DNA of 64,000 bases from NCBI RefSeq assembly GCF_007860125.1, contig NZ_SJPW01000004.1, positions 618,738 to 682,737 of the forward strand. Reading direction: 5' to 3'. Shown here in pieces: positions 39,246 through 54,759 of this stretch; the first letter of the stretch is position 1, and every line of letters starts with the position of its first letter. The position numbers and the translations under genes are program-made. Source of the stretch: Rubripirellula tenax (GTDB lineage Bacteria > Planctomycetota > Planctomycetia > Pirellulales > Pirellulaceae). Under the pieces are notes generated by a model. It had not been told where the DNA came from. It searched no databases and was given only the letters and a program-made list of their open reading frames with translations.

Positions 39246-39268
39246 CTCCAAGTGAGATCGACACACGC

Positions 39269-41743
39269 ATGAAAAAAGAAAAAATCGAACTCAACCTGCT
39301 TCTACCTACCGTCAACGATGCGGACGATTCGTGCATCAGACGTCTGGCGGAGTTGCTGCAAAACAAAGCAGGAATCGACGCGGCACACTTGCTCAAACCG
39401 AGTGATGAAAGCCCTGGCCAAGTCTGCGTTCACTACGACCCGAATGTGGTGTCGACGGGCGAGGTTCGCGATTTGGCACGACGCGCCGGTGCTGAATTGG
39501 ACAAGCAATATGGTCATTGGTTGTCGAAGTCGCCCGCCATCCATGCTCGCCGCGCATCGGCGATCGAGTCTCGCTTGAACCGCATCGACGGAGTTCTCGA
39601 AGCGGTGATATCGCCCGACGGAACCGTGCGAGTCGAATACGATCGAAAGCTGACAAGCGAGTCCGCAATCGCGGACGCATTTCACCAATGGCAGACTTCG
39701 ACAACAGTCGACGCTCACGCGGGTCACGACCATGATGGGCAAACTCATGAAGACGATGACGACCATACCGGACACGACCATGCCCACGGAGGCATCTTCG
39801 GGTCGAAGTCGGAACTGATCTTCGCGATCCTCTGTGGTGCGTTCTTGTTGGTCGGCTGGCTGATTGAAACGTTTGCCGAACTCAACCAGTGGATTCCGGT
39901 CGGTTGCTTCATCGCCGCTTACCTCTTCGGCGGATACTACACCGTCAACGAAGCGATCGAAAAGATTCGTGCGGGCAAGTTCGAGATCGACTTCCTGATG
40001 ATCGTGGCTGCCGCCGGTGCCGCGTCGCTGGGTGCGTGGGCCGAAGGTTCGTTGCTACTGTTCCTGTTCAGCATCGGTCACGCATTGGAAGGCTACGCGA
40101 TGGGGCGAGCCAAACGAGCCATCGAAGCGTTATCCGAACTCGCCCCTAAAACCGCACGTGTTCGACGCGATGGAAATGAATCAGAAATTCCCGTCGAAGA
40201 CTTGGTCGTTGGCGACACCGTCATCATCAAACCCGACGAACGAGTCCCAGCCGACGGTTTCGTGATCGCGGGTGAGTCCAGCGTTAACCAAGCACCAATC
40301 ACGGGCGAAAGCGTGCCTGTCGACAAACAGCCTGTTCGCGATATTGAAGCCGCAGCGGCTGAATCCGAATCACTTCCGCCGGAACATCGAGCCTTTGCCG
40401 GCACGATCAATCAATCGGGATCGTTAGAAATCTGGGTCACGAAGATCGCATCGGAGAACACGCTGGCTCGCGTCGTGACAATGGTCAGCGAAGCGGAAAC
40501 GCGGGTTTCGCCAACGCAAAAGTTCACGAAAAAGTTCGAGCGATACTTTGTTCCGTCGGTCATCACCGGCGTCGTGCTCTTGATGTTCTCACCGCTGGTT
40601 ATCGACGAAACCTTCAGTGATTCGTTCTACCGAGCAATGGCGGTGCTGGTTGCCGCCAGCCCTTGTGCACTTGCGATCGCGACACCTAGTGCGGTGCTCA
40701 GCGGCGTCGCGCGAGCCGCTCGCGGCGGCATCCTTATCAAAGGAGGCGGGCCATTGGAAAGCCTCGGCAGTCTCGATTCGATCGCGTTCGACAAAACTGG
40801 CACGCTCACCGAAGGCGAACCAAAAGTCACCGATGTTCGCACGGCGGATGGCGTTGAAGAATCGGAACTGTTGCGGTCCGCAATCGCAGTGGAAGACCTC
40901 AGCAAACACCCGCTTGCCAAGGCAGTCGTCCGCGATGGGAAGAAGCGATTGGGTGATGGGCAGTCTGGGAGTGGGGGAGAGATTCCAGAGGCAACAGATC
41001 TCAAAAGCATCACGGGACGCGGCATCCGGGCGACGGTCGAAGGGGACGTCGTGCATATTGGCAAAGACGACTTGTTCGCCGAAGTCGACGGTCCGCCGCT
41101 ACCAGACAGCGTTCGCGAGATCGTCGAATCACTAGAACAAAATGGTCGCACCACAATGATTGTCCGCCGTGCCGATCGCTACCTCGGCGTCATCGGATTG
41201 ATGGATACGCCGCGAGAAGCCTCAAAGCGAACCATCTCGCGGCTTCGCGAACTCGGCATCAAGCGAATGATCATGATCTCAGGCGACAACCAAATGGTCG
41301 CCGACGCGGTCGCAAAAGAAGTCGGCCTCGACGAAGCAAGAGGCGACTTGATGCCCGACGACAAAGTCAACGCGATCAAAAAGCTGCAAACCGAAGGTGG
41401 CGTCGCAATGGTTGGCGACGGTGTCAACGACGCTCCTGCAATGGCATCCGCGTCGGTAGGGATTGCGATGGGAGCCGCCGGAAGCGATGTTGCCCTCGAA
41501 ACCGCCGACGTCGCTCTGATGGCCGACAACCTCGACCACCTCCCACTCGCGATTGGCCTCAGCCGCGCAACACGACGAATCATTCGACAAAACCTCTGGA
41601 TGAGTCTCGGCATGGTCGCCTTCCTCGTCCCCGCCACGATCCTCGGACTGAACATCGGCCCCGCCGTCGCCCTCCACGAAGGCAGCACCCTCGTCGTCGT
41701 TTTTAACGCCCTGCGTCTACTCGGTTACAAACCAAAAGCTTAA
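39269..41743 (+). CDS. P1B-4-type metal-transporting ATPase
   Basis: 824 residues. The N-terminal 145 residues look like two degenerate heavy-metal-associated domains without CXXC, followed by a His-rich stretch (HAGHDHDGQTHEDDDDHTGH, about 150-169). Catalytic features are ITGESVP (344-350), SPC in TM6 (464-466), phosphorylation Asp508 in DKTGTLT and GDGVNDAPA. The final segment has HEGSTLVVV and NALRLL. SPC and HEGST identify subgroup P1B-4, whose members export Co, Fe, Ni or Zn rather than Cu. The ion cannot be decided here. Cytoplasmic metal export to the periplasm. Confidence 0.92.
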   Translation: MKKEKIELNLLLPTVNDADDSCIRRLAELLQNKAGIDAAHLLKPSDESPGQVCVHYDPNVVSTGEVRDLARRAGAELDKQYGHWLSKSPAIHARRASAIESRLNRIDGVLEAVISPDGTVRVEYDRKLTSESAIADAFHQWQTSTTVDAHAGHDHDGQTHEDDDDHTGHDHAHGGIFGSKSELIFAILCGAFLLVGWLIETFAELNQWIPVGCFIAAYLFGGYYTVNEAIEKIRAGKFEIDFLMIVAAAGAASLGAWAEGSLLLFLFSIGHALEGYAMGRAKRAIEALSELAPKTARVRRDGNESEIPVEDLVVGDTVIIKPDERVPADGFVIAGESSVNQAPITGESVPVDKQPVRDIEAAAAESESLPPEHRAFAGTINQSGSLEIWVTKIASENTLARVVTMVSEAETRVSPTQKFTKKFERYFVPSVITGVVLLMFSPLVIDETFSDSFYRAMAVLVAASPCALAIATPSAVLSGVARAARGGILIKGGGPLESLGSLDSIAFDKTGTLTEGEPKVTDVRTADGVEESELLRSAIAVEDLSKHPLAKAVVRDGKKRLGDGQSGSGGEIPEATDLKSITGRGIRATVEGDVVHIGKDDLFAEVDGPPLPDSVREIVESLEQNGRTTMIVRRADRYLGVIGLMDTPREASKRTISRLRELGIKRMIMISGDNQMVADAVAKEVGLDEARGDLMPDDKVNAIKKLQTEGGVAMVGDGVNDAPAMASASVGIAMGAAGSDVALETADVALMADNLDHLPLAIGLSRATRRIIRQNLWMSLGMVAFLVPATILGLNIGPAVALHEGSTLVVVFNALRLLGYKPKA

Positions 41744-41858
41744 GAGGACACGGACTAGGTCGACGACGATGACCCCGTCCTGCCTTACCTATCACAATCA
41801 CCAGAAGAATGCGATCTGCGATGGCAAGCTAAACGCAACCCTTCAGTCTCAGAACGAA

Positions 41859-41895
41859 AAAACGCTGACGCCCCAATGTGGGACGCCAGCGTTTT
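41859..41895. terminator. Bidirectional terminator between convergent genes
   Basis: AAAACGCTGACGCCCC (41859-41874) pairs with GGGACGCCAGCGTTTT (41880-41895) with two mismatches, with A residues before and T residues after. It serves the ATPase (plus) and the gene cluster ending at 41997 (minus). The remaining 250 bases between those genes contain nothing else I can name. Confidence 0.65.
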
Positions 41896-41996: not shown

Positions 41997-42356
41997 TCAG
42001 TCGCTGGGATGGACGACGTGGTAGTCGGGCATGCCGGGGTAGGCTTCGCCGGGGTGACCGGGCGGCAGGTTGTCTGGGGCCGAGAAGCCGGGCGGGACGT
42101 GATAGGGATGGTCGGGCGGTAGTCGAGGCCAGACGTGTATGGGCGGGTAGGATTCGACTACGTTGGGCTCCTCGGGCTCGGGTGGCCATGGGAAGTCTTC
42201 GGGCCACCAAGGCGGACGAGGACCGAAGCTGTCGCTCGAACCATCGTCATCGGTGGAACTGCCTTCAGGCAGGTACGGAGGCTCGCTTCCGGGCGGGTCG
42301 AAAGGCGGAACAAACGGGAACGGTGGCATGTCGGGCTCGATGGAACCATAAGTCAT
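41997..42356 (-). CDS. Pro-rich acidic small protein, last gene of cluster
   Basis: 119 residues from the ATG at 42356, which overlaps the radical SAM stop (ATGA). About a third is Pro, with Asp/Glu and aromatic residues (MPPFPFVPPFDPPG, PRPPWWPEDFPWPPEPEEP). It ends in a His/Pro/Gly-rich segment and has no signal peptide and no Cys or Lys. A disordered peptide of this kind next to a radical SAM enzyme could be a substrate, but there is no leader/core pattern I recognise. Function unknown. Confidence 0.6.
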   Translation of the reverse strand: MTYGSIEPDMPPFPFVPPFDPPGSEPPYLPEGSSTDDDGSSDSFGPRPPWWPEDFPWPPEPEEPNVVESYPPIHVWPRLPPDHPYHVPPGFSAPDNLPPGHPGEAYPGMPDYHVVHPSD

Positions 42357-43204
42357 AGCAATGTACTTCGTTGCAGGGGGTTGGGATGAACGAACTTGGT
42401 GCGGTGAGATGGGCAGAGTCCGCACTGCGGTACGGCCTTGGTTTCGATGAAGGTGCGAAGCTCATCGTCGGTGGCATCGGCAGCGATCGCTTTGTAGTCG
42501 CGAAAGAGTTGCCACTGGGGCAAGTTGTTCAACTTCAGCTTCGACTCGAGTTGGGCGAAGTAGGCCAAGGCAGGGCACTTGAACAAGAATCCGTTCTCGC
42601 CGAGCTGGGTGCAGGTCTTTTGAAGACAGACACGGTAGGCTGCGTTGGGATTGGAATCGAACGGCATCGGCTTACCGTTCTCGATATTGTGCTGCCGCAT
42701 CCAACCGCGATGGGATTGGCGGATCTTGATTTGGATGCCAGGGTGATCCTCGCGCCATCGCCAAACAAGATGTTTGACTTCGCGGAATCGTTTGACGTAG
42801 TCATCGTGCGTACCGTGCTGGCTGACTTCGAGTCGGCAACCGGTTTCCACCAGAACCGCCGGCAGGTCAGGAAATCGATGCAAAAAGAAGCCGTTGGTGA
42901 CTAGCATCAAATCGCTGCCGGTCCAGTGATCTGCCGCGAGATGAATGTGCTGGATCACGTTTGGGTTCAACAGTGGTTCGCCGCCAAGGAGGGCAAAGCG
43001 TTTGGGACGTAAACGTTGCGACCATCGTGAGTAGTCTGCATCGGCTTGCTCGACGGTCGGCATTGAGCCGGCCAGCTTGAGATTCGAATAGTGGCTGCAT
43101 TGTTGGCACGAGAGGTTGCAACTGTGTGCGAGGTGATATTCCAACGCGGGCAGTTCAATCATCGCTTGATCGCCTGTAATGTCAGGAGTGTTTGGCGAAC
43201 TCAT
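42353..43204 (-). CDS. Radical SAM protein
   Basis: 283 residues with the radical SAM cluster motif CNLSCQQC (Cys29, Cys33, Cys36), the SAM-binding GGEPLLNP at about 74-81 and a beta-alpha barrel pattern (LMLVTNGFFL, CRLEVSQHG). The C-terminal part has more cysteines (CLQKTCTQLGENGFLFKC and CGLC), resembling SPASM-like auxiliary iron-sulfur domains found in peptide- or sugar-modifying enzymes. It overlaps the papain-like gene (TAATG) and the Pro-rich gene (ATGA). Substrate unknown; neighbours suggest peptide or glycan modification. Confidence 0.88.
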   Translation of the reverse strand: MSSPNTPDITGDQAMIELPALEYHLAHSCNLSCQQCSHYSNLKLAGSMPTVEQADADYSRWSQRLRPKRFALLGGEPLLNPNVIQHIHLAADHWTGSDLMLVTNGFFLHRFPDLPAVLVETGCRLEVSQHGTHDDYVKRFREVKHLVWRWREDHPGIQIKIRQSHRGWMRQHNIENGKPMPFDSNPNAAYRVCLQKTCTQLGENGFLFKCPALAYFAQLESKLKLNNLPQWQLFRDYKAIAADATDDELRTFIETKAVPQCGLCPSHRTKFVHPNPLQRSTLL

Positions 43205-43707
43205 TAGTGAATCGGCGATCCGCGTAGAAGACGATCCGGGGTGTGCCAGGATTTCGACGGAAGTTGAATGCCAGCCGACGAGAGTGCTCCATGAGCGAAC
43301 TGGCTGCAGTAAATGCGTCCATCGGGGCGAGAGTTAGGATTGAAGAACTGCTTCAATCCGTAACGCAGTCCAACGTTTCGCCGAACATAGTCGCGTATTC
43401 CTTGCACTTGTGTGGGTGTGAGTGGTTCGCTTGGAGGAACGTAACGCACCGTCCAAGGCTTGCCGGCCGCGTAGCGATCGAGTGGTGTGCATTTGGCTCG
43501 CGGAAAGGTCGACTCGCAAACCTTGCCATCAATCACGATCGCTGTGTGCGTGTAGTGCGTTCCGGTCACGCGAGAAAGGAAGTTGCCGAAACGTCCTTTC
43601 AAGCGGGACATCACTAACGTGCCATCGGGGTAGGTTTGGCCTGAGCACTCGGCGCAGACAAAGACCAAGAACATCAATACTGTGAGGCATCGCATGAACG
43701 CGTGCAT
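43204..43707 (-). CDS. Secreted permuted papain-like amidase (YiiX/NlpC type)
   Basis: 167 residues; GGAG seven bases upstream supports the ATG at 43707. Signal peptide about 1-23 (CLTVLMFLVFVCAECSG). The mature part shows the order His54 (HYTHTAIVIDG) then Cys134 (RIYCSQFAHGAL), which is the circularly permuted arrangement of YiiX/YebB-like NlpC/P60 enzymes. Such enzymes hydrolyse amide or ester bonds in peptidoglycan, peptides or lipids. It is exported, unlike most proteins of the cluster. A gap of 110 bases separates it from the glycosyltransferase genes. Confidence 0.72.
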   Translation of the reverse strand: MHAFMRCLTVLMFLVFVCAECSGQTYPDGTLVMSRLKGRFGNFLSRVTGTHYTHTAIVIDGKVCESTFPRAKCTPLDRYAAGKPWTVRYVPPSEPLTPTQVQGIRDYVRRNVGLRYGLKQFFNPNSRPDGRIYCSQFAHGALSSAGIQLPSKSWHTPDRLLRGSPIH

Positions 43708-43817
43708 GTGAGAACTCCATTTCGTGTCAGCGAGATTTACCAGAGACGCCGTGACTGAATGAATCAGTGATTGGCTGGGTGGTCGGCTCTATGGATGGTT
43801 AGAAATGAATGACAGCG

Positions 43818-44531
43818 TCAGCGCCACATGACTCGGTCGAGTCCATGCTTCCGAATGGCTGTTGTCAAGAACTCGGGTCTTCGCCGCTGGTAGCCGGGTG
43901 GGTCGATGTGTTCGTGCCTAAAGGAATGAGACACATCGCAGGCGACGTTGACGCCGGCGAGCTTGCATCGCCAGAAGAAGTCCCAGTGCTCTTCGACTTT
44001 GAGCGATTCGTCCCAGCGGATCGCTTGGAGGATGTCTCGATAGGCCACGAAGCAATTTCCGACGTAGTGACACCATCGCATGGAGCCGCGTCGCTTGTAG
44101 TGCCCATGCGGAATCCGCAGCGTCCGACCATCAGACTTCATCAGCTTTGGACGTTCTTGAAGATTTGATAGACCGGCCAAGAGATCCAGGTCATGGTGAC
44201 GGTTCAACTTGACAGCCAATTCCGGCAGACGCGTTTGGTTGGTAACCAAGTGATCGTCGTCAGCAAAGACCACCATCGGGGTGTCACCAGCGTCGAGCAA
44301 CCGGTTGCGACCGGCCGACAAGCCAATGTCGTACTCGGTTTCAATAAGTCGATCGACCATTGCCGCCTCGTCGGGACAACTCGACGAGAATCGCAACTCC
44401 GGTTTTCCATCGTCGAGCACGTGGATTGCCGGTCGTTCTTCGCCGTAGAGTTGGTAAATGCTGCGGACGAGCGCGGCACAACACTGCGGGCGATGAATCG
44501 TCTTGATGCAAAAAGTGATTTGTTCACGCAC
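43818..44531 (-). CDS. Glycosyltransferase, GT-A fold (copy 1)
   Basis: 237 residues. The beginning QITFCIKTIHRP and the block HVLDDGKPELRF are the nucleotide-sugar-binding strands. FADDDH (about 90-95) is the metal-binding DxD-type motif, and a later acidic EEHWDFFWRC segment corresponds to the acceptor region. It is clearly paralogous to the gene at 44524-45288 (shared ITFCIKTIHRP, DDDH, EHW-FF and a C-terminal RKHG). It overlaps that gene by eight bases. The sugar and acceptor are unknown; it has no membrane segment. Confidence 0.85.
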   Translation of the reverse strand: MREQITFCIKTIHRPQCCAALVRSIYQLYGEERPAIHVLDDGKPELRFSSSCPDEAAMVDRLIETEYDIGLSAGRNRLLDAGDTPMVVFADDDHLVTNQTRLPELAVKLNRHHDLDLLAGLSNLQERPKLMKSDGRTLRIPHGHYKRRGSMRWCHYVGNCFVAYRDILQAIRWDESLKVEEHWDFFWRCKLAGVNVACDVSHSFRHEHIDPPGYQRRRPEFLTTAIRKHGLDRVMWR

Positions 44532-45288
44532 GGACGATTTGACCTCCTGGATAACGCATCGAATGGAAACCGTGCTTGCGAAGCCCTATCGCACGGAACT
44601 TCGATCTTCCCCGCAGGTTGCCGTAGCCAGTGCCGGCCACGTGTGCATGGACGACTGAACAATCCGTCGCGACCGCGATTTGCAGATTGGCAAGGTGACT
44701 CGCCCGGTAGAAGAACTCCCAGTGCTCGTAAGTTTTCAGGGCTTCGTCCCAACGGAGCGTCGCGATCTTTTCTTTGCGAGCGAGAAACGCGTTGCTGACC
44801 ATGTCGCACCAAGCAACGGTGCCGACACGTTTCTTCTCGCCCCGATGCATCCAGATGCGTTTGCCGTTCATCAGCGGCGAAAGCATCGTGGGTCGACCGC
44901 CTCCACCTTGTCGGACGGCAAGGATGTCGAGTTCGTGCTTCGTGAAGTACTCGCAAACGCGGTCGATGTGAAAGTCCGGCGTGACAACATGGTCGTCGTC
45001 CAGCAGAAAAATGAACTCGGTCTGCGCCGCGTCGATCGCCGCGTTACGTCCTACTCCAACGCCCACATCGTGCTGATCAAGGTTGATGACCGTGCAAAGC
45101 TCAGCGGTTTCTGGATATTTCTCACTGAATCGAAGCTCGGGCCGACCGTCGTCGACAACAACAATCCTTGGATCGGCGATGTGCTCGCGCAGCGATTTGA
45201 CCAGGCGATGGCAGGACCAAGGTCGGTGAATCGTCTTGATGCAGAATGTAATGTCTGCTGTTGAGATGCTATTCACCATGATGCTCAC
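44524..45288 (-). CDS. Glycosyltransferase, GT-A fold (copy 2)
   Basis: 254 residues: ADITFCIKTIHRPWS, VVVDDGRPELRFSEKY, the donor-binding FLLDDDHVV (about 93-101) and KTYEHWEFFYRA. Paralogue of the gene at 43818-44531. It overlaps the GT25-like gene (ATGA at 45285-45288). The two paralogues probably add successive sugars or act on different repeats of a shared acceptor; the Ser-rich protein encoded upstream is the obvious candidate acceptor, by inference. Confidence 0.85.
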   Translation of the reverse strand: MSIMVNSISTADITFCIKTIHRPWSCHRLVKSLREHIADPRIVVVDDGRPELRFSEKYPETAELCTVINLDQHDVGVGVGRNAAIDAAQTEFIFLLDDDHVVTPDFHIDRVCEYFTKHELDILAVRQGGGGRPTMLSPLMNGKRIWMHRGEKKRVGTVAWCDMVSNAFLARKEKIATLRWDEALKTYEHWEFFYRASHLANLQIAVATDCSVVHAHVAGTGYGNLRGRSKFRAIGLRKHGFHSMRYPGGQIVRA

Positions 45289-46619
45289 CCAAACTTCCTA
45301 AGATCCGGATTGACGTGTTCGATCGCTGACTGGATTTCATCCTGGGTTGGCGTGATCCCGAGGAACTCGACCAGATTGCTGATCACCTCCTCGGGATACG
45401 TCACCAGTTCGGCGAACTCGATCCGGAATACCGGCACTTCGGGATGGTCTGCGATGAAGTTGTCTCGGTGATCGCGGAGACTGCGTTGCAGAACCTCACA
45501 GTCCTCGTCGTTCGCCGCGAACCATTGGCCACGATGTTTCGCGCTGCGATTCTGCAGTGAACGAATCGACGCTTCGATGTCTCGTTCGACGGAGATGATT
45601 CGCAGTGAATCGCCCAGTCCGGCGTGAAGGTGATTCACGAAGCGACATAGATGCGGATACTTTGCGCCGGAGACAGTCTTGTCGCGGTTGGCTTCCGATT
45701 TGCGACTGACGATCCACGACTTGAGCATTTGAGTCAGTTGGTCGTCGCTGACATTCGGATCGGTGGCAGGGAAACGCATCACCTTTTCGCAGAGCTGTGC
45801 CAACCCGAGTGCCTCTCCGCCTCCGGTCGCTTCGTAGCCGCCAAGCTGGTTTCCCATGTGAACGCCGAGATGATGCATGACCATGGCGACGCATGATGTG
45901 CCGGCGCGGTGCGGGCCGAGGACGGCAAAGAACGGTGCGTCGGAATGATCGGCGTTCTTCGCATCGTTGAAGAACCGCGTTTGACTCCATTTTCGACCGC
46001 AGATGTTGGACTTGGTCGGCAGTTGTCCAACGAGCCAACGATCGGGCGTGTAAACTGCGATGGATTCCTTTTGGATGTTCTTTCCTTGAACGAGTGCTTG
46101 GTAGCGACGCTGAATCAATCGACCGAGGTGATGGTCGATATGATGCTTGGTGTGCCAATCGTTCCAAGTGAGATGGCGATAGAGTGTCTTCATCGCCTCG
46201 CGTCCTCGCACCATGAACGCATGAGTGCGGTTCACGTTGTAGGGCCGGTAGACGTGTTCACTGACTTTGTGTGGCGGGTTCTTGCCGGCGTAAAGGTGTT
46301 GTCCGCCCAGGTAGGCCATTCCCCAGTCGGCAGGCAGTTCCGCGATAAACTGTTGCAGCCGTTCGCAGAAGTCGTCGCCGAATCCCGCGTCGTCTTCAAA
46401 GACAACGTACGAGTCGATGTGTTCGAGCAGACACTTTTCGAGAATTAGTAAGTGAGATCGGTAGCATCCCCACGCTCCGTTTCCTGCACGCCACTGCGGG
46501 GGTGTTGCGACGCGGCGGCCGTCGATCGCGGCGAACCGCTCCGGTTCGGGGAACGGCCAGGGATCGGGGAGTTGCCTCATCCATTCTTGCATTCGATCAT
46601 CGCGACGATCGAGGTTCAT
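45285..46619 (-). CDS. GT25-like glycosyltransferase fused to sulfotransferase-like domain
   Basis: 444 residues if started at ATG 46619. The frame is open upstream to 46838, and the conserved beginning CFLMNLDRRDDR suggests a slightly earlier start (ATG 46760 overlaps the upstream gene by 128 bases), so the N-terminus is unsure. The first half resembles family 25 glycosyltransferases (GAWGCYRSHLLILEKCL, VVFEDDAGFG). From about 225 a P-loop sulfotransferase-like domain begins (FAVLGPHRAGTSCVAMVMHH, PAPS-binding loop; then RIISVERDIEASIRSLQNRS, 3'-phosphate loop). A glycosyltransferase-sulfotransferase fusion would build a sulfated glycan. It overlaps GT copy 2 by four bases. Confidence 0.82.
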   Translation of the reverse strand: MNLDRRDDRMQEWMRQLPDPWPFPEPERFAAIDGRRVATPPQWRAGNGAWGCYRSHLLILEKCLLEHIDSYVVFEDDAGFGDDFCERLQQFIAELPADWGMAYLGGQHLYAGKNPPHKVSEHVYRPYNVNRTHAFMVRGREAMKTLYRHLTWNDWHTKHHIDHHLGRLIQRRYQALVQGKNIQKESIAVYTPDRWLVGQLPTKSNICGRKWSQTRFFNDAKNADHSDAPFFAVLGPHRAGTSCVAMVMHHLGVHMGNQLGGYEATGGGEALGLAQLCEKVMRFPATDPNVSDDQLTQMLKSWIVSRKSEANRDKTVSGAKYPHLCRFVNHLHAGLGDSLRIISVERDIEASIRSLQNRSAKHRGQWFAANDEDCEVLQRSLRDHRDNFIADHPEVPVFRIEFAELVTYPEEVISNLVEFLGITPTQDEIQSAIEHVNPDLRKFG

Positions 46620-46632
46620 TAGGAAACAGCGT

Positions 46633-47205
46633 TCAACGATCGAATTCGTCCTCCGGATCGTCTTGGTCTGGTTCGGGTGCCCCTTCAGGGAATTTTCGCT
46701 CGTACTTGCGGATGGCAGTGTTGACGAGACTGCGGGCGACTGTTGATGTAAACCTTCCATGCGGGAGTCCTCTTGCTTGGGCTTCTTCGAGTAACCAATC
46801 GACGATCGTGTCAATGTTTTGGCGGCAACCGTCGGCACCCCAGTCGTTCATCGTGTCGACACGGGTTTCGCAGTTGCATGTTTCGCTTGGCTTTGCAAAC
46901 CAAGCGATCATCTTTTTGAGTTCGTTACCGGGACCGGGCCGGTAGCTACTCATCTTCAGCGTCGCCGGCATCGGGTCTTCGTCCGGCATGTAGTTGCGAA
47001 GAAGTGCTTCCAACTCGATGACGTTTTGTTTGCGTCGCTTCTTGTTGACCAATGCCATGCCGATGGTGACGACGTTGATCGCGCACGGGTTATCGTTGAT
47101 CTGGCACGCGTTGCACGCGGTCGGCGTGGTTTGCACGCGACACCCAGCGAGTTGGCATGCCACTTCGCATTGGTTGTCGGGTGTTAGATGTGGACAATGC
47201 ATCAT
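46633..47205 (-). CDS. Cys-rich protein of unknown function
   Basis: 190 residues. The N-terminal 45 residues hold eight Cys (CPHLTPDNQCEVACQLAGC, then CNACQINDNPC), a layout suggesting one or two zinc or iron-sulfur sites. A middle helical part follows (RRKQNVIELEALLRNY), then a CNCETR...GCRQNID segment and a helical basic region (TSTVARSLVNTAIRKYERKF) with an acidic tail. No signal peptide. Its start overlaps the stop of the Ser-rich gene (ATGA), so the two are translationally coupled. I do not recognise the family. Confidence 0.72.
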   Translation of the reverse strand: MMHCPHLTPDNQCEVACQLAGCRVQTTPTACNACQINDNPCAINVVTIGMALVNKKRRKQNVIELEALLRNYMPDEDPMPATLKMSSYRPGPGNELKKMIAWFAKPSETCNCETRVDTMNDWGADGCRQNIDTIVDWLLEEAQARGLPHGRFTSTVARSLVNTAIRKYERKFPEGAPEPDQDDPEDEFDR

Positions 47206-50200
47206 GCTGTCATCCCCGCTACCGCGCCATCGAATGAACCGGACGAACTGGGTGGGTCGCCGGGGTCTTCACAATCGCTGCTCACCAACTCCCAACCGCA
47301 CGACCAAATCCACGTGCTGTTGCAAGGTTCACTGGATCCGCTGCTGTCTTCGGATGGTTCCTCGGTTGAATCGCTTTCACTCGGCCGATTGGAGCCATCA
47401 CTGCTATCGGACGCACTTCCGCTCGGGCGATCGGAACCATCGCTGGGTGGGTCTGAGTCGGATGTCGAGTCGTTGCTCTCGGATGGTTGATCGCTGTTGC
47501 TTCCCGATGAATCGCCGACGCTCGGGTCGTCGCTTTCGCTGGGCCGATCACTGTCAGAACCTTCCGATCCCGAGTTGCTAGTCGACCTTGAAGTTGAATC
47601 GGAACCAGAGACACTTGATGACGTCGGGACACTGGTCGAGTCATCGCTTCGCGAGTCACTGCCAGAATCCGATGTGCTCGTTGATCGTGAGTTGGAGGCC
47701 GATCCGCTATCGCTGTCTGGTTCGGATGCACTTACGCTGCCTGATCCTGAATCACTGCCGGAATCCGATCCGCTGCCTGATGCAGAACCACTTTGGCTCC
47801 CACTGGCGGAGGCACTATCCGAGTATGATGCCGAAGCACTCGCTGAGTAACTTTGCGAGTCTGAACTGCGGTCGATGCTTGATTCGCTTTGGGAATCGCT
47901 GCCCGACTCGCTGGCTGATGGCGACGTCGAGTCGGATTCCGATTCGGACTCACTTGATACGGAATCGCTTTCGCTACTCGCTGACGAATTCCAACTAAAC
48001 GAAGGCACGCTCTCCGAGTCTGACTCGCTACGTGACTCACTTTCTGATGTGCTTGATACGGACTGGCTGGATTCAGATGTCGATGATTCGCTGGTCGATG
48101 ACGCACTCTTGGATGTGGACGATTGCGAACTGCTAATGGATGGCGTGCTGGCTGATTCGCTTGATTGCGAGGTCGATGAATCGCTCGACGAACCGGAATC
48201 GCTTGATTGCGAGTTGCTCGTCGACGAATCACTCGCCGATGAACTGGACGCGGACACGCTTGGCAGGCTGATCGACGTACTGGAATCGCTCGATTCGCTT
48301 GTCGATGAGTCGCTGGACTGGGAGTCGGACGAACTATCTGACGAATCACTCGATGCGGACGACGACCCATCGGAACTTGATGAACCACTGACGCTGGGCA
48401 GGCTGGTCGATGTGCTCGAGTCACTAGACTCGCTGTTGGATGAATCACTCGATTGTGAGTTTGACGAGCTGTCCGACGAATCACTCGAGGCGGACGATGA
48501 CCCATCGGAGCTGGATGAACCACTGATGCTGGGCAGACTGGTCGAGTCACTTGAATCGCTGTTGGATGAATCGCTTGATTGAGAATTCGACGAACTGTCT
48601 GACGAACCGCTCGATGAAGACGAGGAACCGTCGGAACTGGATGAACTGCTTACGCTCGGAAGACTTGTCGAGGTGCTTGAATCGCTGCTGTTCGAGGAAT
48701 CGCTCGATTGACTACTGCTGACGCTACTGGATGAAGACTTGGAACTGTGGCTTGAATCGCTGCTGCTGGATGCAGATGAACTGAGGGAGGAATCGCTGCT
48801 GTCGGATGACGACGAGTTTGAGGATGAATCGCTGCTCGAAGATGACTTTGATGAAGACGACGAACTGCCGGAACTGCTGCTCGATGACGAGCCGCTGCTT
48901 GATGAGGACGATGGGCTGCCGGACGACGATGACGACGATCCACTGCTCGAGGAACTAGAACCGGATGAGCTGCTACTGGAAGATGACAGAGAACTGCTGG
49001 AACTTGACGACATGCTCGATGAGCTTGAACTGCTCATGCTCGAACTACTCGATGAACCACTGATGCTTGATGAGCTTCCCGATGACGAAGAAGAGGATGA
49101 TGACGAGGGAGACGACGAGGAACTGCTGGACGATGAATCGCTGCTAGAACTGCTACTGGAACCTGAACTCGACGAACTGCTGGAGCTTGATGAACTGCTC
49201 GAACTACTGCTGCCATCACAGCATCGGCAACCGATCGTCAAATACGCCGACGTGTCTTCGTGGAAGTGACAGACAATCTGTTGGCTTGCCAGCAATGCGT
49301 AATCGCACACGTTGTAGACCGAGACGGCAGGGCCAATCGGTTTCCATCCACCATCAAACCGAAGTTCGCGAGCCGTTCCCCACGACTTTGCTTTGATACG
49401 TTTCGCTGGCTTGCACAGAAGCGTTTGCTTGGGCGGGTCGATCACCCACGATCGTTGACCGTCGAACTGCACTTCCAGGTATTGTTTCGGCGAATCCGCG
49501 ATCGGTCCGCGAATACGCTGCGCCGAGTGATTTCGAGCGGTGATTCGTACCGTGTCGCCAGCCGGGTCGGTTACCGCATTGATCTCGCCCGCTTTGTCGA
49601 GTTGATACAAGTCGCAGTCCGCGCTGCCCGTTCGCATCCCTCGCCGGCCCGCGATGCCACCAATCGGAACCTCGACGAGGTAAACTGGATCAGCGGGCCG
49701 GCCGACTCGAACGACCGCCCACTGCAGACCAGTCGTTGAGAGATCTTTCCGCCACAGGATCTGTGCCGAACCGTCGGGCTTGGATTGCAACGTGTCGCCA
49801 CCGGATTCGGCAACGTCGGCGAAGCGATGCCACGTTTTGGTGACGTCGACCTGCGCCGCGACGACACCATCGAACACGACTCGACCAACTTGGTCCGCCG
49901 CGATCGGTTCGATGGCGACGCCAACGCGACCGCTGTGTTCGTCTTCGGTTGGCGTGATGCACTCGATCGTGGCATCACGAACGAAGCGGGCCAGTTCGAC
50001 GGGGCCGGCCGTTGGATCGGTCAGCGGCGTTTCAAAGCCGACGATGCCGCCGATCGGAACGACCGCGCCGGACTTGTTGTGAACGCGAACCGTTGATGCG
50101 TTTCGCAGGTGCGTCCGCGGTCCGCCGCCACCGGGAAGCCGGTTGCGGTGCGACGCATCGGCCGCGGCGAGCAGTCGGTTGTACTCGGTCGCCGAGATGC

Positions 50201-50234
50201 GAAGCTGATCACCTGGGCGAACGCGTCTTGCCAA
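47202..50234 (-). CDS. Ser-rich repeat protein with structural N-terminal domain
   Basis: 1,010 residues from a TTG at 50234 that directly follows the stop of the upstream gene. Residues 1-340 form an ordinary folded region (for example VVPIGGIVGFETPLTDPTAG and GRVGVAIEPIAADQVGRVV), a pattern I associate with phage virion-type proteins, from memory. Residues about 345-960 are almost entirely Ser with Asp, Gly, Glu and Thr (long runs of S, then SDSSDSS and SESDSES units). The end has a Cys/Trp cluster (CNSTWIWSCGWELVSSDC). No signal peptide. The Ser tract is an obvious O-glycosylation substrate and the next genes encode glycosyltransferases. Confidence 0.8.
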   Translation of the reverse strand: MARRVRPGDQLRISATEYNRLLAAADASHRNRLPGGGGPRTHLRNASTVRVHNKSGAVVPIGGIVGFETPLTDPTAGPVELARFVRDATIECITPTEDEHSGRVGVAIEPIAADQVGRVVFDGVVAAQVDVTKTWHRFADVAESGGDTLQSKPDGSAQILWRKDLSTTGLQWAVVRVGRPADPVYLVEVPIGGIAGRRGMRTGSADCDLYQLDKAGEINAVTDPAGDTVRITARNHSAQRIRGPIADSPKQYLEVQFDGQRSWVIDPPKQTLLCKPAKRIKAKSWGTARELRFDGGWKPIGPAVSVYNVCDYALLASQQIVCHFHEDTSAYLTIGCRCCDGSSSSSSSSSSSSSSSSGSSSSSSSDSSSSSSSSSPSSSSSSSSSGSSSSISGSSSSSSMSSSSSSSMSSSSSSSLSSSSSSSSGSSSSSSGSSSSSSGSPSSSSSSGSSSSSSSGSSSSSSKSSSSSDSSSNSSSSDSSDSSLSSSASSSSDSSHSSKSSSSSVSSSQSSDSSNSSDSSTSTSLPSVSSSSSSDGSSSSSSGSSDSSSNSQSSDSSNSDSSDSTSLPSISGSSSSDGSSSASSDSSDSSSNSQSSDSSNSESSDSSTSTSLPSVSGSSSSDGSSSASSDSSDSSSDSQSSDSSTSESSDSSTSISLPSVSASSSSASDSSTSNSQSSDSGSSSDSSTSQSSESASTPSISSSQSSTSKSASSTSESSTSESSQSVSSTSESESRSESDSESVPSFSWNSSASSESDSVSSESESESDSTSPSASESGSDSQSESSIDRSSDSQSYSASASASYSDSASASGSQSGSASGSGSDSGSDSGSGSVSASEPDSDSGSASNSRSTSTSDSGSDSRSDDSTSVPTSSSVSGSDSTSRSTSNSGSEGSDSDRPSESDDPSVGDSSGSNSDQPSESNDSTSDSDPPSDGSDRPSGSASDSSDGSNRPSESDSTEEPSEDSSGSSEPCNSTWIWSCGWELVSSDCEDPGDPPSSSGSFDGAVAGMTA

Positions 50235-51029
50235 CTATGAGATTCCTAAAGCGTTAAAGTTGCCTTCGGGGTAGACCTGCTCGACATAAGCCGCCGCCGG
50301 TGTTTGCAACACGCGGTCGCCGACGACCTCTTCGTCGTGCTTCACCCAAAGGTAATCCCAGCCTCGTTTATTGACGGTACCGATTTCACCAAGTTGCAGT
50401 GCGGCTTGGTTGGGACGAGCGGCGAAGTGATAGGTGATGTCGACCCAGTTGTTGTCGTCTTCACCTCCTTCACCGCCGAGGAACAAGGCTTCGCCGGGGC
50501 CAAAGATCGACCAGTCGGTTGAGTTGGTTCGCCCCGTCATCGCGACGACGGCCAGCAAGTAGGACGTCGAGACGAACTCGAACTTCTTGCGGACCGAGAA
50601 CTCGAAAGCGGGTACGGTGATGTCGACGCCGGACACGCCGGAGTCACTCACGCCGATCGCACCGCGATAATTGGGTGCGGTCTTGCCAGGAGCGGCGTAA
50701 ATGCCGCGGGTGCCGAGCGACTGATTGACGTGGGTTGTCGCGCCGGTGGTGTTGAACGAAACCGGATCGAGTTTGGTCTCGTTCAGGTTCGCGGTGACGA
50801 GTGCGTATTTCTCGTTGATGTGTTCCGCGTCGATTCGCAGGAACGGGATCGTTTCCGGTTGGGTCGTGCGGAAGTGTTGCAGCAACGCGGCGGCAGCGGC
50901 GGCCGGATCGACTCCGCCACCACCGGAATTTGCCACGTAGGAAACCGTGTCGGTCGTTTGCGTTCCACGAGTTGCCTTGGGGGACAACGCCGCGACCTCG
51001 AAGTTGTATCCGCCAGCAGAGATGCTCAT
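50235..51029 (-). CDS. Putative structural protein of the Ser-rich cluster
   Basis: 264 residues. It begins MSISAGGYNFEVAALSPKAT and has Ala- and Gly-rich linkers (SGGGGVDPAAAAAALLQHF), then predominantly beta-strand segments (VDITVPAFEFSVRKKFEF, WDYLWVKHDEEVVGDRVL). No signal peptide, no Cys. Its start shares a base with the stop of the upstream gene (TGATG) and its stop abuts the start of the Ser-rich gene. I recognise no family. Size, beta content and position suggest a structural (phage-like or appendage) component; this is inference. Confidence 0.6.
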   Translation of the reverse strand: MSISAGGYNFEVAALSPKATRGTQTTDTVSYVANSGGGGVDPAAAAAALLQHFRTTQPETIPFLRIDAEHINEKYALVTANLNETKLDPVSFNTTGATTHVNQSLGTRGIYAAPGKTAPNYRGAIGVSDSGVSGVDITVPAFEFSVRKKFEFVSTSYLLAVVAMTGRTNSTDWSIFGPGEALFLGGEGGEDDNNWVDITYHFAARPNQAALQLGEIGTVNKRGWDYLWVKHDEEVVGDRVLQTPAAAYVEQVYPEGNFNALGIS

Positions 51030-51844
51030 CAGCTAAACACCAGCCCGCCGCCGCTGGACCGTTCGGCGAGCTTGCGGGTGTTGTGAGCGGTTTCGACGAT
51101 GGCTCGTTGGACGTCTTCGCTTAGTCCGAGGCCGGAGCGTTCGCCGGTTTGATCGAGGTTACTGCTTCCGCCGGCGAGCAATTCGTTGGACTTCATGAGG
51201 TATTGTCCGATGGAGATAAGTCGATCGTTGAGTTGTTGTAAGCCCGATTCGATGTTGTCGGCGGGCAGTGGTTCAGCGAGCGGTTCTGCGACAAGGGATG
51301 GTTCTTCGATGGCGACGTTTGCATCCGCCTCGGGTTCTGGTTCCTCGATCACCAATTGCGGCGCGGCGATCACTTCGGGCTCGTTGTCGAGCTGGATTGG
51401 CTCCAGTTTTTCCGCAGGTTGTGGATTGCCGAGCGGTTCGATGCGCCGGGCACCGCTGCCGAAGTCCAGTCCGCGGGAATCGAATTTGCCGGTGACCGAT
51501 TCGCCGGTGGATTCACCAACGTCGGTACCGGCGAAGTTGTCGATCGAGGCTTGGGCCTCGCGATTCAGTTCCAAGGCAACGGCATCGTCTTCGAGCGTTG
51601 CTGGCGGGAGGTCGACCTCGCTGGCTGCCCCCGCTTGGTCGCTAATCGCGGCAGCTTTGGCTTCGATTGCGGCGATGCCGGCTTTCAGCTTTTCGATACG
51701 TTCGTCATCGGGTTCATTTTCGCCGGGGATTCCCACTTCGGCTTGAGCGGCTTCGAGGGACACTTTGGCTTCGCCGATCGCGGCAGCAAGGTCATCGGAG
51801 ATTTGTGGTGAATCGTTCGTCTCGCTATCGAAAGGTGGTTTCAA
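51029..51844 (-). CDS. Acidic Ala/Glu-rich protein, first gene of cluster
   Basis: 271 residues from a TTG at 51844; a stop lies four codons upstream, and no ATG is available near the N-terminus. Residues 15-75 are helical and coiled-coil-like (EAKVSLEAAQAEVG, KAGIAAIEAKAAAI). The centre is acidic and Pro-rich (LVIEEPEPEADANVAIEEP), and the C-terminus has a helical segment (LQQLNDRLISIGQYLMKSNE) and the end AERSSGGGLVFS. It looks like a disordered scaffold with helical ends. No family recognised. Upstream (51845-51949) there is no gene I can support; a promoter was not identified. Confidence 0.55.
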   Translation of the reverse strand: MKPPFDSETNDSPQISDDLAAAIGEAKVSLEAAQAEVGIPGENEPDDERIEKLKAGIAAIEAKAAAISDQAGAASEVDLPPATLEDDAVALELNREAQASIDNFAGTDVGESTGESVTGKFDSRGLDFGSGARRIEPLGNPQPAEKLEPIQLDNEPEVIAAPQLVIEEPEPEADANVAIEEPSLVAEPLAEPLPADNIESGLQQLNDRLISIGQYLMKSNELLAGGSSNLDQTGERSGLGLSEDVQRAIVETAHNTRKLAERSSGGGLVFS

Positions 51845-51949: not shown

Positions 51950-52366
51950 TCATGGTAGCGGCGGGAGACCAAGCTCTTTGAGGTAGCTGTTGTGTTCTGA
52001 CTTGGCCTTTTCGATCTCGGCTTCAATTGCGACAAGCTTGCGATGTGTTTCGGCTAAGTCGATTTGGACCTCAGGTTCGGCGGTGCTGACGTAGCGGGAG
52101 ATGTTGAGGTTGTAGTCCTCTTCGTCGGCGATCTTCGACATCTCTATGCGGGCGGAGAAGCGGTCTTCGATCCGGCGATGCTGGTAGGTGTCGATGATCT
52201 TGTCGATGTGCGTGTCTGACAGGAAATTCTGTCGCTTGCCTTTCTTGAAATGTTTTTCGGCGTTGATGAACAGCACGTCGTCGGTTCGCTTGCACTTCTT
52301 CAGCACCAAAATGCAAACGGGGATTCCGGTGCTGTAAAAGACTCCGCCGGAATTACGGCGTCGGGG
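51950..52366 (-). pseudogene. Truncated hsdM (type I DNA methyltransferase) C-terminus
   Basis: The last 138 or so codons of an HsdM-type adenine methyltransferase, out of a normal length near 500. The frame opens after a TAG (52367-52369) and reads FYSTGIPVCILVLKKCKRTD, then DVLFINAEKHFKKGKRQNFL, DTHIDKIIDTYQHRR and DYNLNISRYV, all characteristic of the HsdM C-terminus. It ends KELGLPPLP. The catalytic NPPY-type motif and the N-terminal half are missing and no hsdS or hsdR lies nearby, so it is a remnant. The break point coincides with the 5' end of the divergent reverse transcriptase gene. Confidence 0.85.
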
Positions 52367-52385: not shown

Positions 52386-53642
52386 GTGTGGCATGGTCTG
52401 GACAACCAGACTCAAGAATTCAAGCCGAAGGATGTCGCGATACATCCTTTCTTGCCGTTCATCGGCCGGACCAAGATCGAGCGGCGTTACAAACGCGACC
52501 TCGGTAAGGTGAAGCCGAAAGAACGGCCGCTTCGTTATGCGGCACACAAAGATGCCCGTATCTATTCGCGTTACGCCCAGATTGTCAGTCAACTATACGA
52601 GCATCAACTAGCGGAGCTTGGCATCGCCCAGTGCGTGCTTGCCTACCGCAAAACGGCAGCCAAGGCCAGCAACATCACCGCAGCCAAAGAAGCCTTCGAC
52701 TTCATCGAGACCTTTGGCGAATGCGATGTCGTGACCGTTGATGTAACGTCGTTTTTCGAGAACCTTGACCACGAACGGCTGAAGGAATTGTGGTGTCGAG
52801 TGCTGGGCTGCGAAAGAATTCCATCTGATCACTTCGCGATTTTTAAGCAGCTTACTCGTTACCGATTCGTCGACCTGGATCGTTTCTTGGACGAAGCCGA
52901 AATCAAGAAAGCATCGCTATCGCGAAAGTCGCAACCGGGCCAAACGCGGAAGCGACTAAGTGACATGGATCGCCTGCGTGAGCTGTTTAAGCGGGAGGGC
53001 GTCGTCCAAAAACATGACGAAACGGCCGGAATTCCCCAGGGTTCGCCGGCGAGTGCTGTCTTGTCGAATTTGTACATGCTTGATTTCGATGCGGCTCTTG
53101 CTTCGTACGCTGACGAGATCGGTGGACTCTATCGCCGCTACTCGGATGACATCTTGATCGTTGCTCCGGTAGGCATGGCGAGCGATGTGATTGCCCGCGT
53201 TCGGGACGAGCTTGAAGCAGTCGACTTGAAAAGCAACAAGGACAAAGAGAGTTTTCACGAGTTCCGGGTAGATGATGAGCTCGCACTTCGGGCAGATATT
53301 CCTGTCGAGTATTTAGGCTTTGAGTTCGATGGGGCTCGAACGGTGCTGAAGCAAAAAACGATCACTCGCTATCAACAGCGAGCAACACGTTTGGTCAAGA
53401 ATCTTCGCCGCGCCGCACAGTGCCGCGGCAAGAAGCGTGTCAATCGGAAAAAGATCTTTGATCGCTGCACACACATCGGGCGTCGGAATTTTGTTTCCTA
53501 CGCTCGCCGATCGGCGAAAACCTTCTATCCCGATAGCCCGAAGCGGAATCCAATCATGCGACAACTTCGCAATCATGTGAAATTCGTCGAAAAACGGATC
53601 GAACGAGCTGAGGTATGGCTGGGCGAAAATGTTTCGACGTAA
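52386..53642 (+). CDS. DRT-type reverse transcriptase, start missing or atypical
   Basis: 418 codons from a GTG at 52386. Motifs are motif A VTVDVTSFFENLDHERL (Asp119), IPQGSPASAVLSNLYML (216 onward) and the catalytic YSDD (252-255) in GLYRRYSDDILIV. The N-terminal block RPLRYAAHKDARIYSRYAQI and YRKTAAKASNI resemble the defence-associated (unknown group) reverse transcriptases, closest from memory to DRT2. In frame upstream the sequence continues RRRGYRHFDD, the usual N-terminus of that family, but without any start codon before the TAA at 52335. The gene therefore probably lost its start in the rearrangement that also cut hsdM. Confidence 0.8.
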   Translation: MWHGLDNQTQEFKPKDVAIHPFLPFIGRTKIERRYKRDLGKVKPKERPLRYAAHKDARIYSRYAQIVSQLYEHQLAELGIAQCVLAYRKTAAKASNITAAKEAFDFIETFGECDVVTVDVTSFFENLDHERLKELWCRVLGCERIPSDHFAIFKQLTRYRFVDLDRFLDEAEIKKASLSRKSQPGQTRKRLSDMDRLRELFKREGVVQKHDETAGIPQGSPASAVLSNLYMLDFDAALASYADEIGGLYRRYSDDILIVAPVGMASDVIARVRDELEAVDLKSNKDKESFHEFRVDDELALRADIPVEYLGFEFDGARTVLKQKTITRYQQRATRLVKNLRRAAQCRGKKRVNRKKIFDRCTHIGRRNFVSYARRSAKTFYPDSPKRNPIMRQLRNHVKFVEKRIERAEVWLGENVST

Positions 53643-53672
53643 TTGCCGATCTTGCTCTGGTCTGGTTCTAGC

Positions 53673-54050
53673 ATGACAGCCGTCTCTCGTTTTGTCATCT
53701 CGCTGCTATTCATCGCCGCCGGCGTGAATCACTTCGTGTCGCCGGACATGTACTTGAAGATCATGCCGGCGTATTTGCCTTGGCCGTTGTTTTCGGTTTA
53801 CGTGTCGGGGTTCTTTGAAATGGCTGGCGGGATTGGCGTTGCGGTGCCGAAGCTGCGGCGGGCGGCGGGGTGGGGATTGATCGCGTTGTTGGTGGCGGTG
53901 TTTCCGGCGAACGTGGAGATGGTTTTGCACGCGGATCGGTTTCCGGAGATTCCGTTTTGGGCGTTGGTGGCTCGGTTGCCGCTGCAGGGCGTGTTGATCG
54001 CTTGGGTTTGGTGGGCGGCGGTGAAGCGGGTGGGGGCGACGGATGAGTGA
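53673..54050 (+). CDS. DoxX-like membrane protein
   Basis: 125 residues from the ATG at 53673 (an earlier in-frame start at 53643 adds an unlikely segment). Four membrane segments: FVISLLFIAAGVNHFVSP, LFSVYVSGFFEMAGGIGVAV, WGLIALLVAVFPANVEMV and a C-terminal one. The beginning RF...AAGVNHF and the EMAGGIG motif fit the DoxX/DoxD-like family. Role unknown. It overlaps the ZIP-like gene by eight bases. Local sequence is noticeably G-rich at third positions (GCGG, GTGG) compared with its neighbours. Confidence 0.8.
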   Translation: MTAVSRFVISLLFIAAGVNHFVSPDMYLKIMPAYLPWPLFSVYVSGFFEMAGGIGVAVPKLRRAAGWGLIALLVAVFPANVEMVLHADRFPEIPFWALVARLPLQGVLIAWVWWAAVKRVGATDE

Positions 54051-54759
54051 GCTAATTCAGGTGTTGGTGATGACGACGATCGCGGGGGCGGCGATGCCGG
54101 TCGGTGGCGTGCTCGCGATGTTCGAGCGGATTTCGCCGCAGTGGATCGAGGACGAGTTCCGGCACAGCGTGATCGCGTTCGGCGGCGGCGTGTTGATCTC
54201 GGCGGTCGCGTTGGTGTTGGTGCCTGAGGGCGTGCGTGAGTTATCGCTCGGCTGGATCGTGCTGGCGTTCTTGATCGGTGGCATCGCGTTTTGGGGTTTG
54301 GAAACGGTGCTGGCTCGATCGAAGAGTTCGGCCGCTCAGTTGGTCGCGATGGTGTCGGATTTCGTTCCCGAAGCGATCGCGTTGGGCGCGGCGTTCGCTC
54401 ATGGCGAAAGCACGGGCGCGTTGCTGGCGCTCTTGATCGGGTTGCAAAACTTGCCCGAGGGTTTCAATTCGTTTCGAGAGTTGAAAGCCAGCGGCGGAAG
54501 TTCCGATTGGAAGATCGTCGGGTTGCTGTGTGCGTTGGTGCCGCTGGGGCCGATCGCCGGTTGGATCGGATTCAGCTATCTGTCGGCGTACCCCAAACTG
54601 GTCGCATTCATCATGCTGTTTGCCGCCAGCGGAATTTTGTATCTGACGTTCCAAGATCTCGCACCGCAAGCCAAAGACGGCGACCGCAAGCTGCCCGCCG
54701 TCGGAGCCGTGCTGGGGTTTCTGCTCGGCGTCGTCGGCCAAGTCCTGCTGGACGGCTGA
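54043..54759 (+). CDS. ZIP-family-like metal transporter
   Basis: 238 residues, about eight membrane segments. Family signs: HSVIAFGGGVLISAVALVLV in TM2, DFVPEAIALGAAF in TM4 and GLQNLPEGFNSFRE in TM5, where the HNxPEG motif of ZIP proteins appears as QNLPEG. ZIP proteins move Zn or Fe into the cytoplasm. The first His of the canonical TM4 site is replaced, so transport specificity or activity may differ. It overlaps the DoxX-like gene upstream. Confidence 0.8.
   Translation: MSELIQVLVMTTIAGAAMPVGGVLAMFERISPQWIEDEFRHSVIAFGGGVLISAVALVLVPEGVRELSLGWIVLAFLIGGIAFWGLETVLARSKSSAAQLVAMVSDFVPEAIALGAAFAHGESTGALLALLIGLQNLPEGFNSFRELKASGGSSDWKIVGLLCALVPLGPIAGWIGFSYLSAYPKLVAFIMLFAASGILYLTFQDLAPQAKDGDRKLPAVGAVLGFLLGVVGQVLLDG

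Follow-up and report, generated by a model that had tools for sequence, protein, structure and literature searches.

The serine-rich repeat (SRR) glycoproteins of Firmicutes carry an N-terminal signal and an LPXTG wall anchor, and among viruses the glycosylated virions of actinobacteriophages and the glycosylated capsids of chloroviruses are familiar cases in which virus enzymes add sugars to the virus's own structural proteins. The locus considered here consists of ten minus-strand open reading frames (ORFs) at positions 41997–51844 of a 64,000-nucleotide stretch from Rubripirellula tenax (G000:C4:618738-682737, on NZ_SJPW01000004.1), which as a whole is referred to below as the window. It encodes a very Ser-rich protein, here called h, followed by glycosyltransferases, one of them fused to a sulfotransferase, and a radical SAM enzyme. 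It is a tail-end module left by a planctomycete prophage that is now broken and lacks its upstream part, and this phage origin is firm; the module probably specifies a virion appendage with an arm of some 600 Ser-rich residues, to which the enzymes encoded behind it are predicted to add O-linked glycans and sulfate. In the available text of PMC7948813, SRR glycoproteins have in common with this arrangement a long Ser arm beside glycosyltransferase genes and glycosylation inside the cell as the first step, the latter being proposed here also. The likeness to Firmicutes SRR proteins drawn in a preliminary description of this DNA holds as regards composition but goes no further: h has no LPXTG motif and no hydrophobic N-terminus, and neither accessory Sec components nor a GtfA/GtfB-type pair were found among the ten proteins with Pfam and NCBIfam.

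All ten ORFs lie on the minus strand where the preliminary description placed them, but the outermost, j, is not an independent gene. Called as a 271-residue ORF at 51029–51844, it is the final fifth of a gene for a phage tail tape measure, a C-terminal fragment whose homology by tblastn spans 51029–51811: residues 1062–1308 of a 1308-residue protein from locus L023 (related loci are numbered in this way throughout) align to window positions 51811–51032 (65%, tblastn), and the 1178-residue counterpart in L021 hits PHROG tape-measure families (1.5e-78) and PF10145 (1.6e-46). In the ten nearest loci (L021 and L023–L031) j forms part of a protein of 1,047–1,308 residues encoded immediately ahead of the next gene, i, whereas the best row for j itself in the PHROGs and NCBIfam scans was an unknown family at E 0.061. 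Because homology to the tape-measure proteins of relatives ends at 51811, and because none of the eight flanking window proteins that were scanned is phage structural (the portal, terminase and integrase genes of an intact copy are absent from the window itself), the module is taken to be a remnant. At its other end, nucleotide similarity to L027, L028 and L031 stops at 41847–41853, and a terminator-like inverted repeat is visible in the sequence near the end of the homologous block (41857–41895). The earlier suggestion that the cluster was possibly derived from a phage structural locus was thus right, and the tape-measure homology allows it to be put more strongly. Of the two putative structural proteins named there, one is the tape-measure fragment and the other is i (50235–51029, minus strand), which like the first 345 residues of h is a conserved phage protein; i has 264 residues and occupies the position of a distal tail protein, right behind the tape-measure gene. 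None of i, h, g, j and the Pro-rich peptide described below has a family in Pfam or one named by PHROGs or NCBIfam.

What is apparently a fuller prophage of the same group lies on the same contig at about 769–815 kb (L021, L022 and L041). Its cassette, at about 769–779 kb, is followed by genes for a tape measure, a head–tail joining protein, a portal (1e-62 in L022), a terminase (7.5e-30 in L022) and a DNA methylase, with a serine integrase (2.8e-120 in L041) at 812.7–814.3 kb, these genes falling within about 45 kb; the test by portal, terminase and integrase rests on this one copy. The fusion gene of the second copy is 96% identical to that of the window and its protein i only 72%, which is a matter of mosaic exchange of the cassette.

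Gene order was compared in 40 loci, of which ten were taken by place, 25 were best genome hits and five (L066, L070, L072, L077 and L216) were added as loci already known to contain the cassette. The genes for i, h, g, the GT25–sulfotransferase fusion, two GT2 enzymes and the radical SAM enzyme follow one another in the same order and on one strand in 33 of the 40 loci (29 distinct i sequences), or in 28 of 35 if the five preselected loci are removed. Seven genes keeping order and strand to this extent excludes chance, and the co-occurrence search proposed in the preliminary description found a conserved gene order, rather than genes occurring separately in related genomes. As to the exceptions, L025 and L147 are the same contig with arsenic genes, truncated by the limits of the stretch retrieved (L058 has a radical SAM homologue beyond that point); L150, L155 and L159 are short or cut by an end; in L151 the radical SAM gene was not seen within the 10 kb fetched; and L164 lacks h and everything after it. 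In L025 (7821–12202), arsenite efflux genes (ACR3 and ArsA) sit between i and h within one prophage. The nearest match to the cassette is L146, from Rhodopirellula rubra, which has the nine genes other than the tape-measure piece, the amidase included (h being judged by its N-terminus), and also a 1,308-residue ORF upstream; a full-length tape-measure-like gene accompanies the cassette in strains of named species, such as Rhodopirellula rubra CECT 8075 and Roseiconus nitratireducens JC645. Between the fixed genes the cargo is swapped, for instance for a 341-residue protein with a DxD motif (recognised by eye) and no Pfam family, for a GT11-like protein and a second sulfotransferase in L028, or in further relatives for other proteins without a family. 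The final gene of the module, from the ORF list, encodes a Pro-rich peptide (41997–42425, minus strand) and is matched by tblastn in 30 of the 40 loci, in some of them partially.

Protein h was described beforehand as having 1,010 residues, about 600 of them in a Ser/Asp/Gly region, and this is borne out: the arm, a predicted glycosylation substrate, covers residues 342–955 (47370–49211, minus strand), a tract of 614 residues, among them 382 Ser, 56 Asp and 33 Gly, and contains tandem repeats of 126 and 135 bp at 48256–48711. In the alignment with L146, Ser stands in one or both sequences at 323 positions; the codon is identical at 227 of these and synonymous at 86, and at 10 the residue differs. 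Since random single changes to a Ser codon mostly alter the residue, it is Ser itself that is kept in this close pair. Only close pairs were used in this way, the many TCN–AGY switches of distant pairs being set aside as evidence of Ser-codon selection because alignment of low-complexity sequence forces Ser against Ser. Ahead of the arm lie the N-terminal 345 residues (49200–50234), of which residues from about 43 to 179 are predicted to form a beta-tulip-like virion base domain, a likeness to capsid decorations and head fibres that counts in favour of a virion protein. Behind it is a C-terminal tip (47202–47369) identified by its motif, CxSTWIWSCGWEL, which 25 of 43 Ser-rich proteins carry within 150 residues of their C-terminus (three in the looser CCCPCYYQWNGIGW form) and which occurs in one of 1493 other ORFs of at least 200 residues, the pattern having been derived from these same Ser-rich proteins. 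Of the 24 Ser loci that have a sulfotransferase domain, 22 show the motif or a near form, among them L216 and L077, where i is only 45–46% identical; the ORF called in L151 and L172 lacks it. The partner of h is g (46633–47205, minus strand), a Cys-rich protein of 190 residues present in 37 of the 40 loci.

The association of the Ser tract with enzymes was examined in a different set, for which 133 loci had i as an ORF of more than 200 residues, 79 of these (the window included) had at least 4.5 kb downstream, and 53 were left after dropping those at least 97% identical. Genes were taken from a crude longest-ORF caller; a locus was classed as Ser if some 60-residue stretch of its first four same-strand ORFs was at least 50% Ser, and as Hint by a short motif as opposed to a domain search. 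A glycosyltransferase lies downstream in 32 of the 35 Ser loci, in four of the eight Ser/Gly-rich Hint-like loci and in one of the ten without Ser (36 of 43 Ser-bearing against 1 of 10, Fisher 2.2e-5), and among distant loci, with i less than 60% identical to that of the window, the figures are 15 of 22 against 1 of 9 (p 0.006). Any radical SAM hit within 10 kb on either strand was counted in 23 of the 35 Ser loci and in none of the eight Ser/Hint loci or the ten without Ser (23/35 against 0/18, p 1.4e-6); a stricter count (best hit, same strand, 8 kb), which missed fusions and farther genes, gave 17 of 35. The enzymes themselves differ from clade to clade, comprising the GT25–sulfotransferase fusion with GT2, a GT4-like enzyme with a radical SAM and a GT2/GT4 protein (L078, L082), the Mannosyl_trans3 family (L083, L115, L117, L176), or Gly_transf_sug. 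That differing enzymes should gather at one place behind the gene for a Ser-rich protein of the virion module is what speaks most strongly, although it is not proof, for this protein being their substrate. Four of the eight Hint-type loci counted also carry a Gly_transf_sug-type gene. In L197, L211, L131 and others (mostly Phycisphaerales) it is a Ser/Gly-rich protein at the same position that has the Hint-like motif, which suggests self-processing of a virion protein.

Three GT-A-type glycosyltransferases, one with a sulfotransferase fused to it, had been proposed for the window, and Pfam supports two of them outright: the fusion (45285–46838, minus strand; PF01755 at 1.4e-9 and PF13469 at 1.3e-6, with EDD at residue 148 and GPHRAGTS at residue 308) and a GT2-family enzyme (44524–45288, minus strand; PF00535 at 9.9e-14, DDD at residue 97). 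The third (43818–44531, minus strand; DDD at residue 91) is GT2-like but falls below the cut-off, with PF00535 at 1.5e-4 and 22.1 against 23.3 bits. Of the 413 homologues of the fusion at E ≤0.001, many among the best 120 have both domains. Its start at 46838 is probably too early, as judged from close relatives of 444–461 residues that cover 97–100% of residues 60–517, and the true start would lie near the ATG at 46619. The radical SAM enzyme (42353–43204, minus strand; PF04055 at 5.9e-9) and the papain-like amidase (43204–43707, minus strand; C92, PF05708 at 3.2e-6, with a hydrophobic N-terminus) are both as previously proposed, the amidase being cargo that among the 40 loci occurs only in L146 (92% identical). 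Cysteines 29, 33, 36, 193, 261 and 264 of the radical SAM protein are kept in 37 of 37 aligned sequences, the window included, and those additional to the CxxxCxxC motif likely hold an auxiliary Fe–S cluster. We take CxxxCxxC to mark radical SAM, DDD GT2 and EDD GT25 activity, and GPHRAGTS to stand at the place of the loop that binds 3'-phosphoadenosine 5'-phosphosulfate (PAPS); so read, the catalytic motifs look intact in the radical SAM enzyme, both GT2 enzymes, GT25 and the sulfotransferase. Viperins head the NCBIfam and PADLOC results for the radical SAM protein, but that identity was rejected at 41.4 bits against a cut-off of 180. In L078 (7161–8552), a phage with a Ser-rich h, a radical SAM domain follows a GT-A-like stretch (by eye) within one ORF.

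In the mechanism that we propose, the beta-tulip-like N-terminal domain of h would form a trimer and fix the protein to the virion, close to the tail tip if gene position is a guide. Before assembly, serines would receive their first sugar in the cytoplasm from the GT25 domain or from a GT2 enzyme, the remaining transferases would lengthen the glycan chain, the fused sulfotransferase domain would move sulfate onto it from host PAPS (a supply made likely by two APS kinase matches in the host genome), and the radical SAM enzyme may edit sugar or peptide. This would give the virion a rigid brush of negatively charged glycans that ends in an aromatic tip and serves in adsorption or shielding. The "sulfated glycoprotein appendage" of the preliminary description is accordingly a reasonable reading of the enzymes and their co-occurrence, of which the glycan and the sulfate are the predicted part.

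Several considerations tell against such an appendage and need to be set beside it. Glycan and sulfate on h remain predictions. By the stricter count, radical SAM genes show no link when the distant loci are taken by themselves (3 of 22 against 0 of 9, p 0.54); sulfotransferase domains, of the fusion-cassette kind, occur in 24 of the 35 Ser loci and none of the eight Hint loci, so that sulfation is not general; no transferase was detected in three of the 35 Ser loci and four of the eight Hint loci; and L173, a locus without Ser, has two. The counts lack phylogenetic independence, the loci being related, and Ser-bearing loci served as seeds for the transferase models, a bias that Pfam scans reduce without removing: 82 downstream proteins of the 18 loci that are Hint or without Ser gave five Gly_transf_sug and two GT25 matches, and 47 proteins of 11 Ser loci lacking window-type transferases were scanned also. 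Changes polarised between branches show a mild excess on that of the window (14 against 4 in j, 9 against 2 in the radical SAM gene). Lastly, the solved folds closest to the base of h are those of capsid decorations and of the phi29 head-fibre base (Foldseek against PDB, taken alone, was not significant), and such a fold could equally mean a position on the head.

It is this last point that gives most substance to a different placing of h, as a head fibre or capsid decoration and not a tail appendage, which we regard as possible but distinctly the less probable arrangement, since in most of the loci listed h comes right behind i and a tape-measure-sized gene, and since one relative has two separate tandem phage cement proteins (PF09956; L144, 690–1379) upstream. 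Appreciably less probable is that the transferases act on host surface polysaccharide, in lysogenic conversion or to mask a receptor, and stand behind the Ser gene only incidentally. Prophage glycosyltransferases that alter O-antigen are well known, and PHROGs assigns related glycosyltransferases to "moron, auxiliary metabolic gene and host takeover"; however, in 33 of the 40 loci the transferases stand directly behind h and g on one strand, they track the Ser tract, scans with Pfam, PHROGs and NCBIfam show no flippase or polymerase family in any of the ten proteins, and only the amidase among the ten has a membrane-like segment (maximum 19-residue hydropathy ≤1.16 in the others).

With the rest of the prophage lost, the fact that every ORF is still open means either that the remnant is young or that it has been retained for another use. 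By NG86 the ratio of nonsynonymous to synonymous rates (dN/dS) is 0.04–0.18 against L146 and 0.06–0.27 against L144, highest for j in both, which together with the branch excess fits a fairly recent truncation; domestication is not shown. That the host has kept the phage-derived Ser-rich glycoprotein as an appendage serving its own adhesion, for which the open frames and the dN/dS of 0.04–0.18 against L146 might be cited, is likewise rather improbable, given that h has no export signal, that a recent deletion would also leave the ORFs open, that the slight excess of changes on the window branch is mostly in the orphan tape-measure piece, and that ten close relatives have a full-length tape-measure-like gene.

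The module belongs to a phage group that is widespread in planctomycetes and has no relative among the deposited phages of the collection searched. Out of 60 genomes, 14 (that of the window among them) encode protein i, and the stretches that encode it number at least 582 in viral contigs and 254 in genome contigs; of 80 genome loci kept, 74 are titled as planctomycete, two as "bacterium" only and four (all metagenome-assembled genomes) as another phylum. A tblastn search of 50,697 deposited phage records with i and the N-terminus of h matched neither. A survey of literature on planctomycete phages and prophages, on the pairing of Ser-rich proteins with glycosyltransferases and on virion glycosylation, with subscription journals and preprints outside the search, yielded no description of the module. 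The cultured planctomycete phage ZRK32 is extrachromosomal, at 21.9 kb, and "glycosyl" is absent from such text of its paper as was available (PMC10945688).

Among the neighbouring genes is a Drt2 antiviral reverse transcriptase (52386–53642, plus strand, GTG start), which scores 433.6 against an equivalog cut-off of 390 bits and lies about 570 bases from the truncation of the prophage; the first 24 positions of the model are unmatched, and the N-terminus may be altered in the window. A diversity-generating retroelement was rejected, as the best models make this reverse transcriptase Drt2 (repeats being covered by a tandem-repeat scan only). Between the prophage fragment and Drt2 is a C-terminal fragment of a type I restriction N6-methylase (51950–52309, minus strand; PF02384 at 6.2e-17), which presumably occupies the place expected for the upstream RNA of Drt2. 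The remnant is flanked at 37773–41743 and 53643–54759 by genes for a trypsin/PDZ protease, a P-type metal ATPase, and DoxX-like and ZIP-like proteins; the prophages of L028 and L031 likewise adjoin related ATPases.

If the glycosylated and sulfated appendage is real, the group would be a source of new Ser-directed glycosyltransferases and of a natural pathway of protein-linked sulfation, would give a radical SAM enzyme a role in virion maturation, and would offer a testable idea of adsorption to planctomycetes, whose phage biology is little known. A more speculative extension, to which we would give only a small chance, is that the sulfated (in some phages fucosylated) brush is a bait that imitates algal sulfated polysaccharides, so that planctomycetes importing these reel the virus in; the swappable cassette of transferases and sulfotransferases would then be a host-range dial made of sugars and not of protein. 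The idea comes from planctomycete sulfated-polysaccharide biology and from the 153 sulfatase matches in the genome of the window (from 150 scored candidates out of 207, some few of the matches perhaps being parts of a single gene). According to the available text of PMC12078418, Rhodopirellula baltica degrades sulfated polysaccharides, and it has been hypothesised that pili draw whole polysaccharides into the planctomycete periplasm.

The acceptor of the procollagen galactosyltransferases is hydroxylysine, and these enzymes belong, at a very great distance (E 0.013–0.025), to the same GT25 family as the fusion and act on protein side chains, as the fusion is predicted to do. Among described virion proteins, phi29 gp8.5 and the beta-tulip decorations lambda gpD and P74-26 gp87, as given in the available part of PMC7602432, resemble the architecture predicted for h, with a tulip-like base and then a projecting spike; the projection of gp8.5 is, however, a helical supercoil, whereas h has an arm of about 600 Ser-rich residues, stands behind a tape measure and comes with its own set of enzymes. 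In contrast to the SRR glycoproteins of Firmicutes, h is the product of a phage gene, without LPXTG or a signal-like N-terminus, and a sulfotransferase and a radical SAM enzyme are added; from the actinobacteriophages and chloroviruses the locus differs in host phylum, in the architecture of the target, in the GT25–sulfotransferase fusion and in the linked radical SAM gene. What is new is a variant, which would combine a Ser-rich glycoprotein with phage-encoded modification of the virion, both of them kinds of system already known.

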